This document shows positions 718-40,285 of a stretch of DNA of 40,285 nt, one piece after another. The stretch's first letter is position 1. The number at the start of each line of letters is the position of its first letter. Below the pieces are notes generated by a model. The model had not been told where the DNA came from. It searched no databases and was given only the letters and a program-made list of their open reading frames with translations. Source of the stretch: Desulfuromonas sp. (lineage in GTDB: Bacteria; Desulfobacterota; Desulfuromonadia; Desulfuromonadales; Desulfuromonadaceae); assembly GCA_021162745.1 (NCBI GenBank), contig JAGGYC010000077.1:1-40285 (forward strand). The letters are read 5' to 3'. The translations under genes and the position numbers were made by a program.

Positions 718-966
718 GTGACTCAGAACTCTAAAGCAAGACTGCTACTATCAGATCTGCAACAAGACCAGAAGGCCACCGTCAAAACGTGCGTGGCCAA
801 TGGTGTTCTAAAGCAAAAATTGCTGAATATGGGGATCATCCCCGGTGCTGAAATTCTGATGATTCGCAATGCACCTTTACGCGACCCTATTGAAATTGGA
901 ATTCAAAACTACTTTCTGACCATTCGCCGCAGTGAAGCGAAATTGATCCGGGTGGAAGCATTATGA
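718..966 (+). CDS. feoA: FeoA, ferrous iron transport accessory protein
   Basis: This 82-residue cytoplasmic protein has the FeoA SH3-like fold signature: LSDLQQDQKATVKTCV at the start, then LLNMGIIPGAEILMIRNAPLRDPIEIGI and a basic RRSEA motif in the last strands (each within the family pattern LxxLGIxPGxxxxxxxxAPxGDPIxxxxxG). FeoA is a small partner of the FeoB permease. The start is GTG at 718, chosen because GGAGG ends 5 nt upstream and the overlapping ATG at 716 is followed at once by a stop. It overlaps feoB by four bases (ATGA), implying translational coupling. Its leader contains the CRP/FNR-like sites described above, so oxygen- or nitrogen-oxide-linked control is plausible. Confidence 0.93.
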   Translation: MTQNSKARLLLSDLQQDQKATVKTCVANGVLKQKLLNMGIIPGAEILMIRNAPLRDPIEIGIQNYFLTIRRSEAKLIRVEAL

Positions 967-3401
967 TCAATGTCGCCCTGGCGGGGCAGCCAAACAGCGG
1001 CAAGTCAACTATTTTCAACATGTTAAGTGGCGTCAACCAGCATGTTGCCAATTACCCCGGCGTAACGGTTGACAAGAAATCTGCCTGCATCAAGCATCAT
1101 GGCGAAAGCTATCAGATCGTCGATCTACCCGGAACCTATTCGTTCAGTATGTTTTCCCTCGAAGAGAGGGTGGCCAAATCGTTCCTCCTCGATGAAGAGA
1201 CGGACGTGATTGTCAACGTGGTTGACGCCTCCAATCTGCGGCGCAACCTGTACCTGACGTTTCAACTGCTGGAGTTGGGTAAGCCGGTTGTTCTGGTGTT
1301 GAATATGATGGATGTCGCCAAACGGCGTGAGATTGCCATTGATTGCGATATGTTGGCGCAGATGCTTAACGTTCAGATTGTTGAGTCGATTGGGTCTCAA
1401 CAACAAGGAAAAGCTGAAATCTTGGCCGCCATTGAACGAGCCAGTCAACAGTCAATGACCAAACCCTTCATGATCAACTACAACGAGTTGGAAACCTATA
1501 TCGCCCAGCTGGAAAAACAGATCACTCTGGAATCGACCATCGCCCGGCGCTGGCTGGCCATCAAGGCCCTGGAAGGCGATGATCTCATCCTGAAAAAAGT
1601 TGGGCTGACCACAGAGTCAATCCGCGATCTCACCGCGACGGTTCATACCCGTCATGATCTCGATGTCGATCAGAGTTTTGCCTGCCAGCGCTACGCTAGC
1701 GCCGATCTCGTCTATCATAAATGCGTTGAGGAAAAACAGCTCGGCAAGGTGAACTTAACGGCAAAAATTGACCGGCTGATTCTCAATCGATGGCTGGCGT
1801 TCCCGATTCTAGGACTGGTGATCTACCTGATTTATCAGCTGTCGATTATCGGCGGCTATAAGCTGACTAACTACACCTGGCCGCTGTTCGCAAGCTTGAA
1901 AAACATTGTTATCGACATGGTGCCCGAGGCGCAATTTATCGATCTCCCCCCCATCACCGATTTTGCGATCTGGATGGTGAACAGTGCTATCGCCCTCCTC
2001 AATTACCTGCCGATATTTTTCATCCTGTTTGCCCTGATTGCCATCCTTGAAGATGTCGGCTACATGCCGCGCATGGCATTTATTCTCGACCGGGTGTTCC
2101 GCAGGTATGGTCTGCACGGTCAATCGACCCTTCCATTGGTGTTAGGCGGGGCGTTTGTCGGTGGCTGTGCGGTGCCGGGTATCATGGCCACCAAGGGGAT
2201 TGCCGACGAGCGGGCGCGGCTGGCGACGATCCTCACCGTCCCCTATATGAACTGTCTGGCAAAGGTGCCCTTTTATACCTTGCTGCTCGGGGCCTTCTTC
2301 CCGAATCAGATGGGGCAGATGATGTTTTACATCTCTACCGTAACCCTGTTTATCGCCCTGATCGTCGCCCGTTTTCTTACTTCAACCATCCTCGCCAACC
2401 GCGAGACCGCACCATTTATCATGGAACTGCCGCCGTACCACCTGCCGACGATTAAAGGGGTGCTGCTGCGTGCTTTTCAGCGCGTTTATCTCTATATCAA
2501 AAAGGTGGTGACCGTTGTGATGGCAGTGGCCGTCGTCCTGTTTGTGCTACTGCAATATCCCGGAGTACCGGGAGATAAGATGGCGGGATTCAGGGATGAG
2601 GCGAACAACGCTCTGGCAGATTTTGACCGCCAAGCCAAAAAAACCGGCGTTTACACCTTGGTCGATGAACAAACGGAGGTCTTTGCCCTTATCAACTTGT
2701 ATGACGGCTACAAAGCCAAGCGGATGCTGGCTGGCAGCAAAAAAGCGGTGGTCGCTCTGGACCAATTATTTCTGGCGGCGAATCCTCAACTTTTTCCGCT
2801 GGTACGGCCGGAAAATTCTTCACGGGCCGACGCTAAAAAAATTAATAAAGCGGTGCGTAAACTCTCGAAGGTCAATAAGAGGTTACAGATGGCGATAAAG
2901 AGTGAAAAAATCGCTAACTCTTTTCTCGGCCTGTTCGGACGTGCGCTGGAACCGATAACCCGGTTCAGCGGCTTTGACTGGCGGATTAATGTCGCCTTCC
3001 TCAGCTCGTTTGCCGCCCGGGAAAGTGCCGTTGCCACCCTCGGCTCCATCTATGAAACTGGACAGGCGGGGCAGCGTGCAGAAGAGTCGATCGCCCAGGA
3101 TGGTGTCTATACGCCGCTTCACGCCGTTGCCATGCTGCTGTTCATGATTCTCTCCCCGCCGTGCATTGCCACCATGGTTGTCGTCAAACTTCAGTCCAAT
3201 TCATACAAGTGGATGTTGTTTGCCACCTTCTTCCCGATCACCCTTGGGATCATCATCTCTTCGCTGTTTTTCACCCTGGCATCATCGCTGGGATGGAGCG
3301 GCATCCAGATGATGCAGTATTTCTATATTTGCGTTGCCGCACTGGCACTGGCATTGGCATTTATCAAAATAAAACCGTCGGCCTGGCAGGTTGGCGAATA
3401 A
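963..3401 (+). CDS. feoB: FeoB, ferrous iron permease with N-terminal G domain
   Basis: This 812-residue inner-membrane protein drives Fe(II) uptake. The N-terminal G domain shows G1 GQPNSGKS (residues 8-15), G3 DLPG (54-57) and G4 NMMD (114-117). A helical spacer runs to about 270, then a polytopic membrane region with the Gate motif GYMPRMAFILDRVFRRYG and the conserved cysteine in GGCAVPGIMATKG. The second gate half (AARESAVATLGSIYE) lies near residue 685. Between the two halves, about residues 535-650, is a charged soluble insertion of about 115 residues that the enterobacterial protein lacks. The gene overlaps feoA by 4 bp. No terminator follows directly; the next 205 bp hold a folded element and then genes for two secreted proteins in the same direction. 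Confidence 0.95.
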   Translation: MINVALAGQPNSGKSTIFNMLSGVNQHVANYPGVTVDKKSACIKHHGESYQIVDLPGTYSFSMFSLEERVAKSFLLDEETDVIVNVVDASNLRRNLYLTFQLLELGKPVVLVLNMMDVAKRREIAIDCDMLAQMLNVQIVESIGSQQQGKAEILAAIERASQQSMTKPFMINYNELETYIAQLEKQITLESTIARRWLAIKALEGDDLILKKVGLTTESIRDLTATVHTRHDLDVDQSFACQRYASADLVYHKCVEEKQLGKVNLTAKIDRLILNRWLAFPILGLVIYLIYQLSIIGGYKLTNYTWPLFASLKNIVIDMVPEAQFIDLPPITDFAIWMVNSAIALLNYLPIFFILFALIAILEDVGYMPRMAFILDRVFRRYGLHGQSTLPLVLGGAFVGGCAVPGIMATKGIADERARLATILTVPYMNCLAKVPFYTLLLGAFFPNQMGQMMFYISTVTLFIALIVARFLTSTILANRETAPFIMELPPYHLPTIKGVLLRAFQRVYLYIKKVVTVVMAVAVVLFVLLQYPGVPGDKMAGFRDEANNALADFDRQAKKTGVYTLVDEQTEVFALINLYDGYKAKRMLAGSKKAVVALDQLFLAANPQLFPLVRPENSSRADAKKINKAVRKLSKVNKRLQMAIKSEKIANSFLGLFGRALEPITRFSGFDWRINVAFLSSFAARESAVATLGSIYETGQAGQRAEESIAQDGVYTPLHAVAMLLFMILSPPCIATMVVVKLQSNSYKWMLFATFFPITLGIIISSLFFTLASSLGWSGIQMMQYFYICVAALALALAFIKIKPSAWQVGE

Positions 3402-3436
3402 CTATAAAAGCATCGTAGCTATTCAGCATAAATGTA

Positions 3437-3557
3437 GAGAAGCTGGCGACGCCCATGGAAAGGGTATCTGTCGCCCGGATGACGACAGTTAAGTACCCAT
3501 GGATGCCAACGATTACAAACAATCGGCGTCCCTTGGAATGGGCGTTGCCAGTTTCTC
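3437..3557 (+). repeat. Strongly folded element (long inverted repeat with two inner hairpins)
   Basis: Arms 3437-3464 and 3530-3557 pair over about 17 bp including two G-U pairs, then a 3x3 internal loop, then 5 bp more. Inside are CTGTCG/CGACAG (3468-3473 with 3483-3488) and CGATT/AATCG (3510-3514 with 3521-3525), giving a three-way-junction shape. It lies between feoB and the gene for a small secreted protein. It may be an RNA regulator, a transcript-processing site or a MITE remnant with 28-bp terminal repeats. It matches no riboswitch consensus that I recall. Confidence 0.6.
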
Positions 3558-3606
3558 GGTCTGGATGGTTGCAAACCACCAACGTAACCACGAAAGGATC
3601 TACATC

Positions 3607-3918
3607 ATGAAAAAAACATTGGTTGTAACAATGGCCGCCTTGGTTCTTCTCAGCACCAATGCCTTTGCCCACACGGCATTGATGTCGTGCTTCGATGAAG
3701 GGGACGGCACCATCACCTGCGAGGGGGGATTCAGCGACGGCAGCAGCGCCAGTGGCGTTGAGTTTCGCGTTGAGCAAAACGGCAAGGTGATCCTGAAAAC
3801 CAAAATGAACGAGTACAGCGAGGTGAACTTCAAGAAGCCCGCAGGGGCTTACCAGGCGATATTCAATGCCGGTGAAGGTCATACGGTCTATGTCGATGGC
3901 AACGATATTGTTGAGTAG
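3607..3918 (+). CDS. Small secreted protein, predicted mature N-terminal His
   Basis: I do not recognise the family with certainty. The 103-residue product has a clear Sec signal peptide (MKKTLVVTMAALVLL) with an AFA cleavage site after residue 21, leaving a mature chain that begins His22-Thr-Ala. Two cysteines (C28, C38) could form a disulfide. The rest is beta-rich (GVEFRVEQNGKVILKTKM), like a small Ig- or transthyretin-type domain. ATG 3607 is chosen over an upstream in-frame start at 3499 because the signal peptide begins there and an AAGGA sits upstream; the longer frame would run through the folded element. It lies between feoB and a DUF4198 protein that shares the mature N-terminal His, so an extracytoplasmic metal-handling role beside Feo is plausible but unproved. 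Confidence 0.8.
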   Translation: MKKTLVVTMAALVLLSTNAFAHTALMSCFDEGDGTITCEGGFSDGSSASGVEFRVEQNGKVILKTKMNEYSEVNFKKPAGAYQAIFNAGEGHTVYVDGNDIVE

Positions 3919-40136: not shown

Positions 40137-40183
40137 TGTCGCACCAACAGGGTTCTGTATAACGGTGCCAGTAGAGTAGAGAG
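40137..40183 (+). repeat. Interspersed repeat family, copy 4 (5' fragment)
   Basis: GTGTCGCACCAACAGGGTTC and the next 27 bases match the start of copy 3 (30639 on), then identity stops at AGAGAGCAAACC. The reverse frame HRYTEPCWCDTI is shared with copy 3. It lies in 40019-40285, where no gene is supported. Confidence 0.8.
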
Positions 40184-40222
40184 CAAACCAGCCACAGTGC
40201 TGACTTGCTCCCCCTCGTCAAA

Positions 40223-40249
40223 CCGGACATGCGGTTTTCCCGCATCCGG
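40223..40249 (-). other. Hairpin resembling the one beside group II intron RT genes
   Basis: CCGG (40223-40226) and ATGCGG (40229-40234) pair with CCGCAT (40240-40245) and CCGG (40246-40249), with a 2-nt bulge and TTTTC loop. Read on the minus strand (AGCCGGATGCGG ... CCGCATGTCCGG, then GACGAGGGGG) it recalls a conserved hairpin next to reverse transcriptase genes of bacterial group II introns. The window ends 36 bp on, so no intron gene can be seen. Confidence 0.4.
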
Positions 40250-40285
40250 CTTTCCTATTGCCTTCTCATCATTACTATCAGGAAA

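Follow-up and report, generated by a model that had tools for sequence, protein, structure and literature searches.

A MITE copy with IS66-type ends and a conserved, strand-biased fold downstream of feoB in a Desulfuromonas genome

Results

The feo locus and the element within it

The window, by which we mean the whole stretch of 40,285 nucleotides that was analysed (Desulfuromonas sp., assembly GCA_021162745.1, contig JAGGYC010000077.1), contains feoB, followed on the same strand by a gene for a small putatively secreted protein. The gap between the two genes holds a strongly folded segment, to which an earlier note on this DNA had drawn attention as having more structure than chance would give in 121 bp (3437-3557). 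This was borne out, as the + strand of the segment folds at -63.5 kcal/mol (z -8.1), with none of 200 shuffled sequences folding as well; the - strand, at -55.9 kcal/mol (z -6.3), is less extreme. The 28-base arms (3437-3464 and 3530-3557) had been described with pairs at 22 positions, including G-U pairs at two sites. The arms and the two G-U pairs stand, but the count does not, since 25 of the 28 positions are paired (23 Watson-Crick and two G-U) and the three unpaired ones form a 3x3 internal loop in which GGA faces GGA. The two short inner hairpins that had been noticed are both present, the second as placed by the minimum-energy fold. Although right as to the kind of structure, the original frame is too narrow, the whole element being 158 bp long with terminal inverted repeats and imperfect 8-bp flanking repeats (Table 1). 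Considering the one and four mismatches in its ends and a duplication that matches at six of eight bases, the window copy is regarded as an older and somewhat decayed one.

Table 1 Features of the element and of its neighbours in the window
Feature	Positions	Strand	Remarks
feoB, upstream neighbour	963-3401	+	FeoB_N, Gate, FeoB_C
Left target-site flank AAAGCATC	3407-3414		6/8 match to right flank
Whole element	3415-3572		158 bp
Left terminal inverted repeat GTAGCTATTCAGC	3415-3427	+	1 mismatch vs GTAACTATTCAGC
Outer stem, 5' arm	3437-3456	+	Partner 3538-3557; two-sided changes in 18/20 pairs, 24 copies
GGA, 3x3 internal loop, 5' side	3457-3459	+	GGA/GGA in many copies of the window's own genome (G000)
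Inner stem AAGGG, 5' side	3460-3464	+	In the minimum-energy fold GGG pairs within GGGTAT/GTACCC instead
Hairpin 1	3468-3488	+	Loop GGA at 3477-3479
Hairpin 2 loop motif CCCATGGATG	3496-3505	+	GGA 3501-3503; the minimum-energy fold pairs this GGA inside hairpin 3501-3531 (long-variant copy)
Hairpin 2, long variant (ACAAACAATCGGCGTC form)	3501-3531	+	Minimum-energy fold; other copies have comparable long forms
Inner stem CCCTT, 3' side	3530-3534	+	From the model and alignment of copies
GGA, internal loop, 3' side	3535-3537	+	Faces GGA 3457-3459
Outer stem, 3' arm	3538-3557	+	Partner 3437-3456
Right terminal inverted repeat, TCTGGATGGTTGC on +	3560-3572	-	4 mismatches vs complement of GTAACTATTCAGC
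Right target-site flank AAACCACC	3573-3580		6/8 identical with left flank
Small putatively secreted protein, downstream neighbour	3607-3918	+	No Pfam match; like gene directly after feoB in six relatives

The C-terminal part of FeoB was searched in 21 genomes and gave matches in 16, and the downstream region was read for the six at 67-74 % identity, the other matches being more distant FeoB proteins. All six genomes (G002, G007, G008, G009, G010 and G027) have an empty site, feoB being followed by a like secreted-protein gene after 17-38 nt, as measured to the start codon judged by reading, against a gap of 205 nt in the window. As the element is missing after feoB in these six relatives, it most likely arrived here in the lineage of the window. 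An open reading frame at 3499-3918 (+) runs from the ATGGATG of the element in frame into the secreted-protein gene, so that the insertion adds a possible upstream start for that gene.

These results bear directly on the metal or cofactor switch, or attenuator of the feo operon, that had been proposed in the earlier note. The element does lie in the gap that follows feoB, both neighbouring genes being on its strand, which favours a riboswitch, attenuator or processing site of this operon. Nevertheless, the six relatives lack it there, copies elsewhere adjoin other genes in either orientation, and Rfam gave no match at the element, whether at the gathering threshold or with E relaxed to 5, so that no known Rfam family could be assigned at this location. 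A role of this kind is highly improbable, and the reading as a conserved feo-operon switch is refuted; accidental effects on the mRNA of this particular operon are possible. Regulation specific to a gene or to an orientation was also rejected, the copies being of mixed orientation. A scan of positions 3200-3800 detected no promoter-like site and one terminator-like site, which lies within feoB. Rfam searches at seven other loci gave 10 matches, all under the gathering scores and mostly to microRNA precursors, which fit any long hairpin. Near the end of the window, at 40171-40254 (-), a group II intron (RF00029) was matched with 49 bits, above its gathering score.

Dispersed copies, their ends and their surroundings

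In the window's own genome (G000, 97 % complete), 31 BLAST matches including the window copy were obtained, and two more copies were found later, giving at least 33. When the copies are aligned outward, terminal inverted repeats GTAACTATTCAGC and 8-bp duplications are seen to be common to them. For a count of ends and flanks, copies were pooled over genomes, at least two of which (G113 and G111) occur under two names; of 222 distinct copies, 213 had enough flanking sequence. Both ends lay within three mismatches of GTAACTATTCAGC in 103 of these 213, and neither end within four mismatches in 33. Among the 103, the flanks were identical at all eight bases in 31 copies and at seven in 20, a total of 51, where shuffled flank pairings lead one to expect 0.34 and 0.51, respectively (0.85 together). 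Most copies with clear ends are about 142-158 bp long, and no transposase ORF is present. The copies, the ends, the duplications and the empty site establish that the feature is one copy of a MITE, a non-autonomous DNA transposon. An insertion of this type had been among the options of the earlier note, and it is upheld by the scattered copies, the inverted repeats, the 8-bp duplications, the empty sites and a transposase-bearing element in a relative, described below. The 8-bp duplications and terminal repeats argue against an identity as a REP/RAYT repeat. Some copies without clear ends occupy orthologous sites in related species, which indicates that not all copies are young insertions.

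The same ends were also observed around other interiors. Three elements of the window's own genome (L056, 972-1136; L057, 2054-2265; L054, 993-1032), of 165, 212 and 40 bp, have GTAACTATTCAGC ends that are the same or nearly so, together with unrelated interiors, the 40-bp one being little beyond two ends; thus, the ends travel with different cargo. In another genome of the same genus (G004), loci L063 (G004:C35) and L064 (G004:C233) contain tandem cores about 124-130 bp apart, without recognisable terminal repeats.

Genomic context was examined for 181 copies in five sets, using gene calls from a home-made codon-usage caller that left 19 copies unclassed (18 of 148 and 1 of 33). Between genes of the same direction, 77 copies are antisense and 45 sense; a further 29 are flanked by divergent genes and 11 by convergent ones. 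This excess of antisense copies (p 0.005) may reflect a slight cost of insertion in the sense direction. A comparison of 227 copies revealed 14 pairs from different genomes that have both flanks in common; in two of the pairs the partners seem to be a single genome recorded twice, and the remainder come mostly from close relatives, with a few between families. Such sharing of flanks across genomes indicates that some copies are old. A host master locus was considered and dropped, as no universal locus was seen among the 227 copies.

Orthologous copies in G027 and G043, between genes whose functions as sensor kinase and response regulator were read from sequence, differ in their arms and are still paired. 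On the same type of functional reading, copies L101, L103, L221 and L234 all lie between sensor-kinase and sigma54-type response-regulator genes, in paralogous or orthologous operons of G027, G043 and G124. L099 and L259 represent one locus in two congeneric species, between which the element is inverted with respect to the genes on either side.

A candidate mover from the IS66 family

A possible source of the transposition machinery was recognised in G039, a genome of the same order, where two exact 13-bp end sequences enclose 1,717 bp (G039:C27:333-2049). This element is intact, with one 483-residue PF03050 transposase and AATAAAAG on both sides (8/8 duplication). A second such element, in G051, has a single transposase ORF and one end with one mismatch, and a matching duplication is absent. 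The single ORF of both is a point of likeness to the ISBst12 group of the IS66 family. ISDge4, a member of this group that has been seen to transpose, has a single ORF, ends GTGACTACTCAGCA/GTAACTGCTCAGCA, which are nearly those found here, and a direct repeat of 8 bases (PMC12898284). The MITE and the ISBst12 group are alike in the GTAACT..TCAGC-type ends and the 8-base direct repeat (PMC12898284). Unlike the group, the MITE has no transposase, and its likeness to the G039 element is in the ends only.

Judging from these shared ends, it is most likely an ISBst12-group IS66 transposase that moves the MITE in trans. An IS66 transposase was present in 4 of the 18 genomes searched; it was not found in the window's own genome, at 97 % completeness, nor in nine other searched members of the genus, and for the window's own host the mover is therefore putative. 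It was likewise not found in G049, despite 59 exact occurrences of the end sequence there (27 forward and 32 reverse), which form one facing pair within less than 1 kb among the matches listed.

Distribution and covariation of the core

A model of the core was built from 24 of 48 copies, all of the short form, from G000, G003, G004 and G039. With this model, the element was detected in 46 of 136 genomes of the order, representing 17 of 53 genera, and at 50 places in the complete genome G027 (51 matches, one place being matched on both strands). In a sample of the phylum, 7 of 395 genomes gave matches, namely six within the order and one weak match. The latter (L173, 1501-1610, in G360 of another family of the phylum; E 5.6e-4) has a long paired stem enclosing two hairpins with GGA loops and is possibly a distant analogue. 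When named genomes were scanned with a pattern, 60 loci were obtained, of which a single MAG contributed 34; 59 carry titles of Deltaproteobacteria or of groups once assigned to them, Pelovirga terrestris and a Geopsychrobacter MAG among these. The remaining locus is titled Chloroflexi, and a contig of G111 has exactly the same match scores. A repeat motif of gammaproteobacteria was tried as well and dropped, having matched one viral contig with a different fold.

Two-sided changes occur in 22 of the 41 pairs of the 24 copies and are concentrated in the outer stem (18 of 20). The covariation score of 0.379 was reached in 0 of 500 shuffles, which gave 0.164, and slid registers give at most 0.099; the 24 copies were trimmed using + strand folds, so that these figures lean towards that structure. 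For the lower stem of hairpin 2, covariation support is absent in these copies. The sequence of the outer stem drifts between copies yet stays paired. The internal loop is more variable, being GGA/GGA in many copies of the window's genome, GGA/GCA or GTA/GAA in G004, and paired through in copies of G027 and G110 as read by eye, and for this last reason the GGA/GGA 3x3 loop was rejected as a conserved mark.

The earlier note had suggested that a covariance-model search would tell an RNA regulator, recognisable by paired changes, from a MITE, recognisable by scattered copies with duplications. Homologues with paired changes, whose absence it would have counted against its reading, are abundant and favour RNA, and the scattered copies with duplications favour a MITE. 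As both tests are positive and a bias towards one strand is seen in addition (next section), the choice between the two cannot be posed as an either/or. Covariation by itself is no proof of a host riboregulator.

Strand bias and the copies probably under selection

If it is the folded + strand that matters, G.U should be tolerated in the stems and A.C should not, and the reverse should hold if the other strand matters. Copies were found for this purpose by their core (hairpin 1 pattern), the register of the arms was set by Watson-Crick matches only, and 99 of 101 stems were taken, duplicates being dropped. The 99 distinct outer stems contain 1606 Watson-Crick, 110 G.U, 16 A.C and 117 other cells. 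Counted per cluster at 70 % identity over the full 20-nt arms, G.U is seen 89 times and A.C 19 times (p 5e-12). The excess of G.U over A.C in the outer stem indicates that one strand, the + strand, has been kept foldable.

One-sided changes were then compared in four genomes, using copies with a likeness of 82 % or more to the consensus of their subfamily. The private changes, each confined to a single copy, comprise 31 G.U, 27 A.C and 43 others, and those common to at least two copies 34 G.U, 11 A.C and 6 others (Fisher p 0.025 for G.U against A.C and 3e-5 for G.U against all disruptive changes), small numbers in which some of the shared changes may be repeated ones. The shared G.U:A.C ratio is 12:2 in G027, 10:3 in G124, 6:2 in G000 and, slightly, 6:4 in G110. 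As the private changes show no bias and the shared ones do, selection seems to keep the + strand foldable in the copies that propagate and not in inserted copies, which drift. The pattern fits a role in propagation or a useful source locus; selection at each insertion site does not fit it. This comparison of private with shared changes, which locates selection on propagating copies, is the most informative result of the analysis.

It may be asked whether the folded strand is RNA at all. DNA tolerates G-T pairs better than A-C, and the fold could act in transposition or replication, as one strand of DNA in single-stranded form; selection that follows source copies is what one would expect if folding helps copying. 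On the other hand, the IS66-type duplications and ends would point to ordinary double-stranded transposition, and the copies of G027 showed no preference for a replication strand (29 of 50), the origin there being poorly defined by skew. We consider it unlikely that the fold works in this way. A fold without any function is a further alternative, since template switching between the arms of a palindrome mends near-perfect palindromes and gives paired changes. The orthologous site L101/L103, with several compensated differences in the arms against about one core base (by eye), is in keeping with such mending; however, the process should not favour G.U on one strand, as observed both overall (110:16) and among shared changes (34:11), and we hold it to be somewhat less probable still than the single-stranded DNA.

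GGA loops and a possible link to CsrA

Loop 2 contains GGA, mostly in the form C-A-N-GGA-Y-G, in 189 of 195 resolved copies, and loop 1 in 186 of 217 copies, the latter by an automatic call with register errors; hairpin 1 was unresolved in 5 of 222 copies and hairpin 2 in 22 of the other 217. The distance from GGA to GGA is 19-21 nt in 166 of 168 measured copies. According to a review on CsrA, the SELEX consensus is RUACARGGAUGU, the hairpin loops that contain GGA have six bases in most cases, sites 10-63 nt apart can be bridged, best when the distance exceeds 18 nt, and very stable structure may disfavour binding (PMC7652899). The frequency of GGA in loop 2 and the spacing fit this description (PMC7652899), and the GGA-bearing strand is the strand under selection. 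The element could therefore be a mobile CsrA/RsmA sponge or target, with two GGA hairpins on the transcribed + strand as candidate binding sites bridged by one dimer, and its copies would then titrate CsrA or place it on host transcripts.

The distribution of csrA (PF02599) speaks on both sides of this proposal. The window's own genome encodes csrA, and so do all 11 of the carriers that are at least 95 % complete and have five or more copies (hand count). Over all genomes, however, csrA was detected in 28 of the 46 with the element and in 39 of the 90 without it (hand count; Fisher p 0.07), a co-occurrence too weak to show dependence on CsrA. In 18 of the 46 carriers csrA was not found, most of these being less than 95 % complete. 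High-copy incomplete genomes are among those without a detected csrA (G003, G005, G012, G096, G113, G116 and G119), and four carriers at least 98 % complete and without csrA (G088, G089, G108 and G035) have one or two copies each. In the genomes classed as without csrA, GGA is retained in both loops in 14 of 17 copies.

Other observations also weigh against binding by CsrA, namely the lower frequency of GGA in loop 1 by the error-prone call, the 8-bp stem of hairpin 1, very stable structure being possibly unfavourable to binding (PMC7652899), the pairing of the second GGA of the window copy in its minimum-energy fold, and the antisense excess of copies between same-direction genes. On this evidence a mobile sponge or target is a tentative proposal, to which we give less than even weight. 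Among the molecular roles for the fold, CsrA/RsmA-type binding by the GGA hairpins is nevertheless the likeliest, as a lead rather than a result. A stronger version, in which the spread of the element depends on a one-strand RNA that binds CsrA, making it a mobile decoy with source-copy selection across the order and inserted copies as neutral fossils, appears doubtful to us.

Discussion

The combined reading, i.e. a MITE copy with IS66-type ends whose conserved one-strand fold is selected in source copies and which is not a feo regulator, is in our view well supported, if short of certain. An IS66-type transposase supplied in trans would move the MITE, of which one copy inserted into the short spacer downstream of feoB and then decayed somewhat. 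The core of the MITE consists of a long stem that drifts while remaining paired, and of two hairpins that usually have GGA in the loop. The + strand fold would be kept in those copies that give rise to new ones, inserted copies being left to drift, and the folded strand, most simply RNA, would help the element to spread or would belong to a functional source locus. Selection on source copies suggests this sort of role for the fold, and not site-specific regulation of feo.

Some known systems offer useful comparisons. CsrB/RsmZ-type sponge RNAs resemble the element in having GGA in hairpin loops at a bridging distance; they are not mobile and have many sites, whereas the element has two main putative sites inside a transposon. 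Correia and ERIC repeats are like it in being short repeats that would fold in transcripts, with ends and duplications other than those found here. RNase III cleavage of Correia repeats is described in an excerpted source, which also deals with folded MITE transcripts (PMC10969869). The same excerpt describes Chunjie, a MITE of Geobacter uraniireducens, of 178-235 bp and dozens of copies, one of them in an operon and others intergenic (PMC10969869). In these respects, and in coming from a related bacterium, Chunjie is similar to the present element; it differs, by description and not by sequence, in its length and in that no conserved RNA-like core is described in the excerpt (PMC10969869). 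QMITE1 and QMITE2 of Coxiella burnetii, with about 50 or more copies, are comparable as MITEs of many copies; some yield small RNAs, and QMITE2 is 150-190 bp long with 7-11 nt repeats, while covariation, strand bias and CsrA are unmentioned in the excerpted description (PMC5896051). A search of open-licence papers gave no paper on this element among the matches listed, and Chunjie was the only MITE of the Geobacter group among them.

The element therefore belongs to a known kind, a MITE with ISBst12-type ends, and is unusual for its order-wide covarying core and for the one-strand selection that seems to act on its source copies. For the annotation of the window, a strong fold in a feo operon is explained as an insertion. 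MITEs are usually viewed as ends and filler; in this one, what would be filler is a structured core that recurs across an order. If this is confirmed, a DNA transposon would have an RNA (or single-strand) structure as a component of its life cycle, and the dozens of natural compensatory variants provide a ready test bed for this idea.
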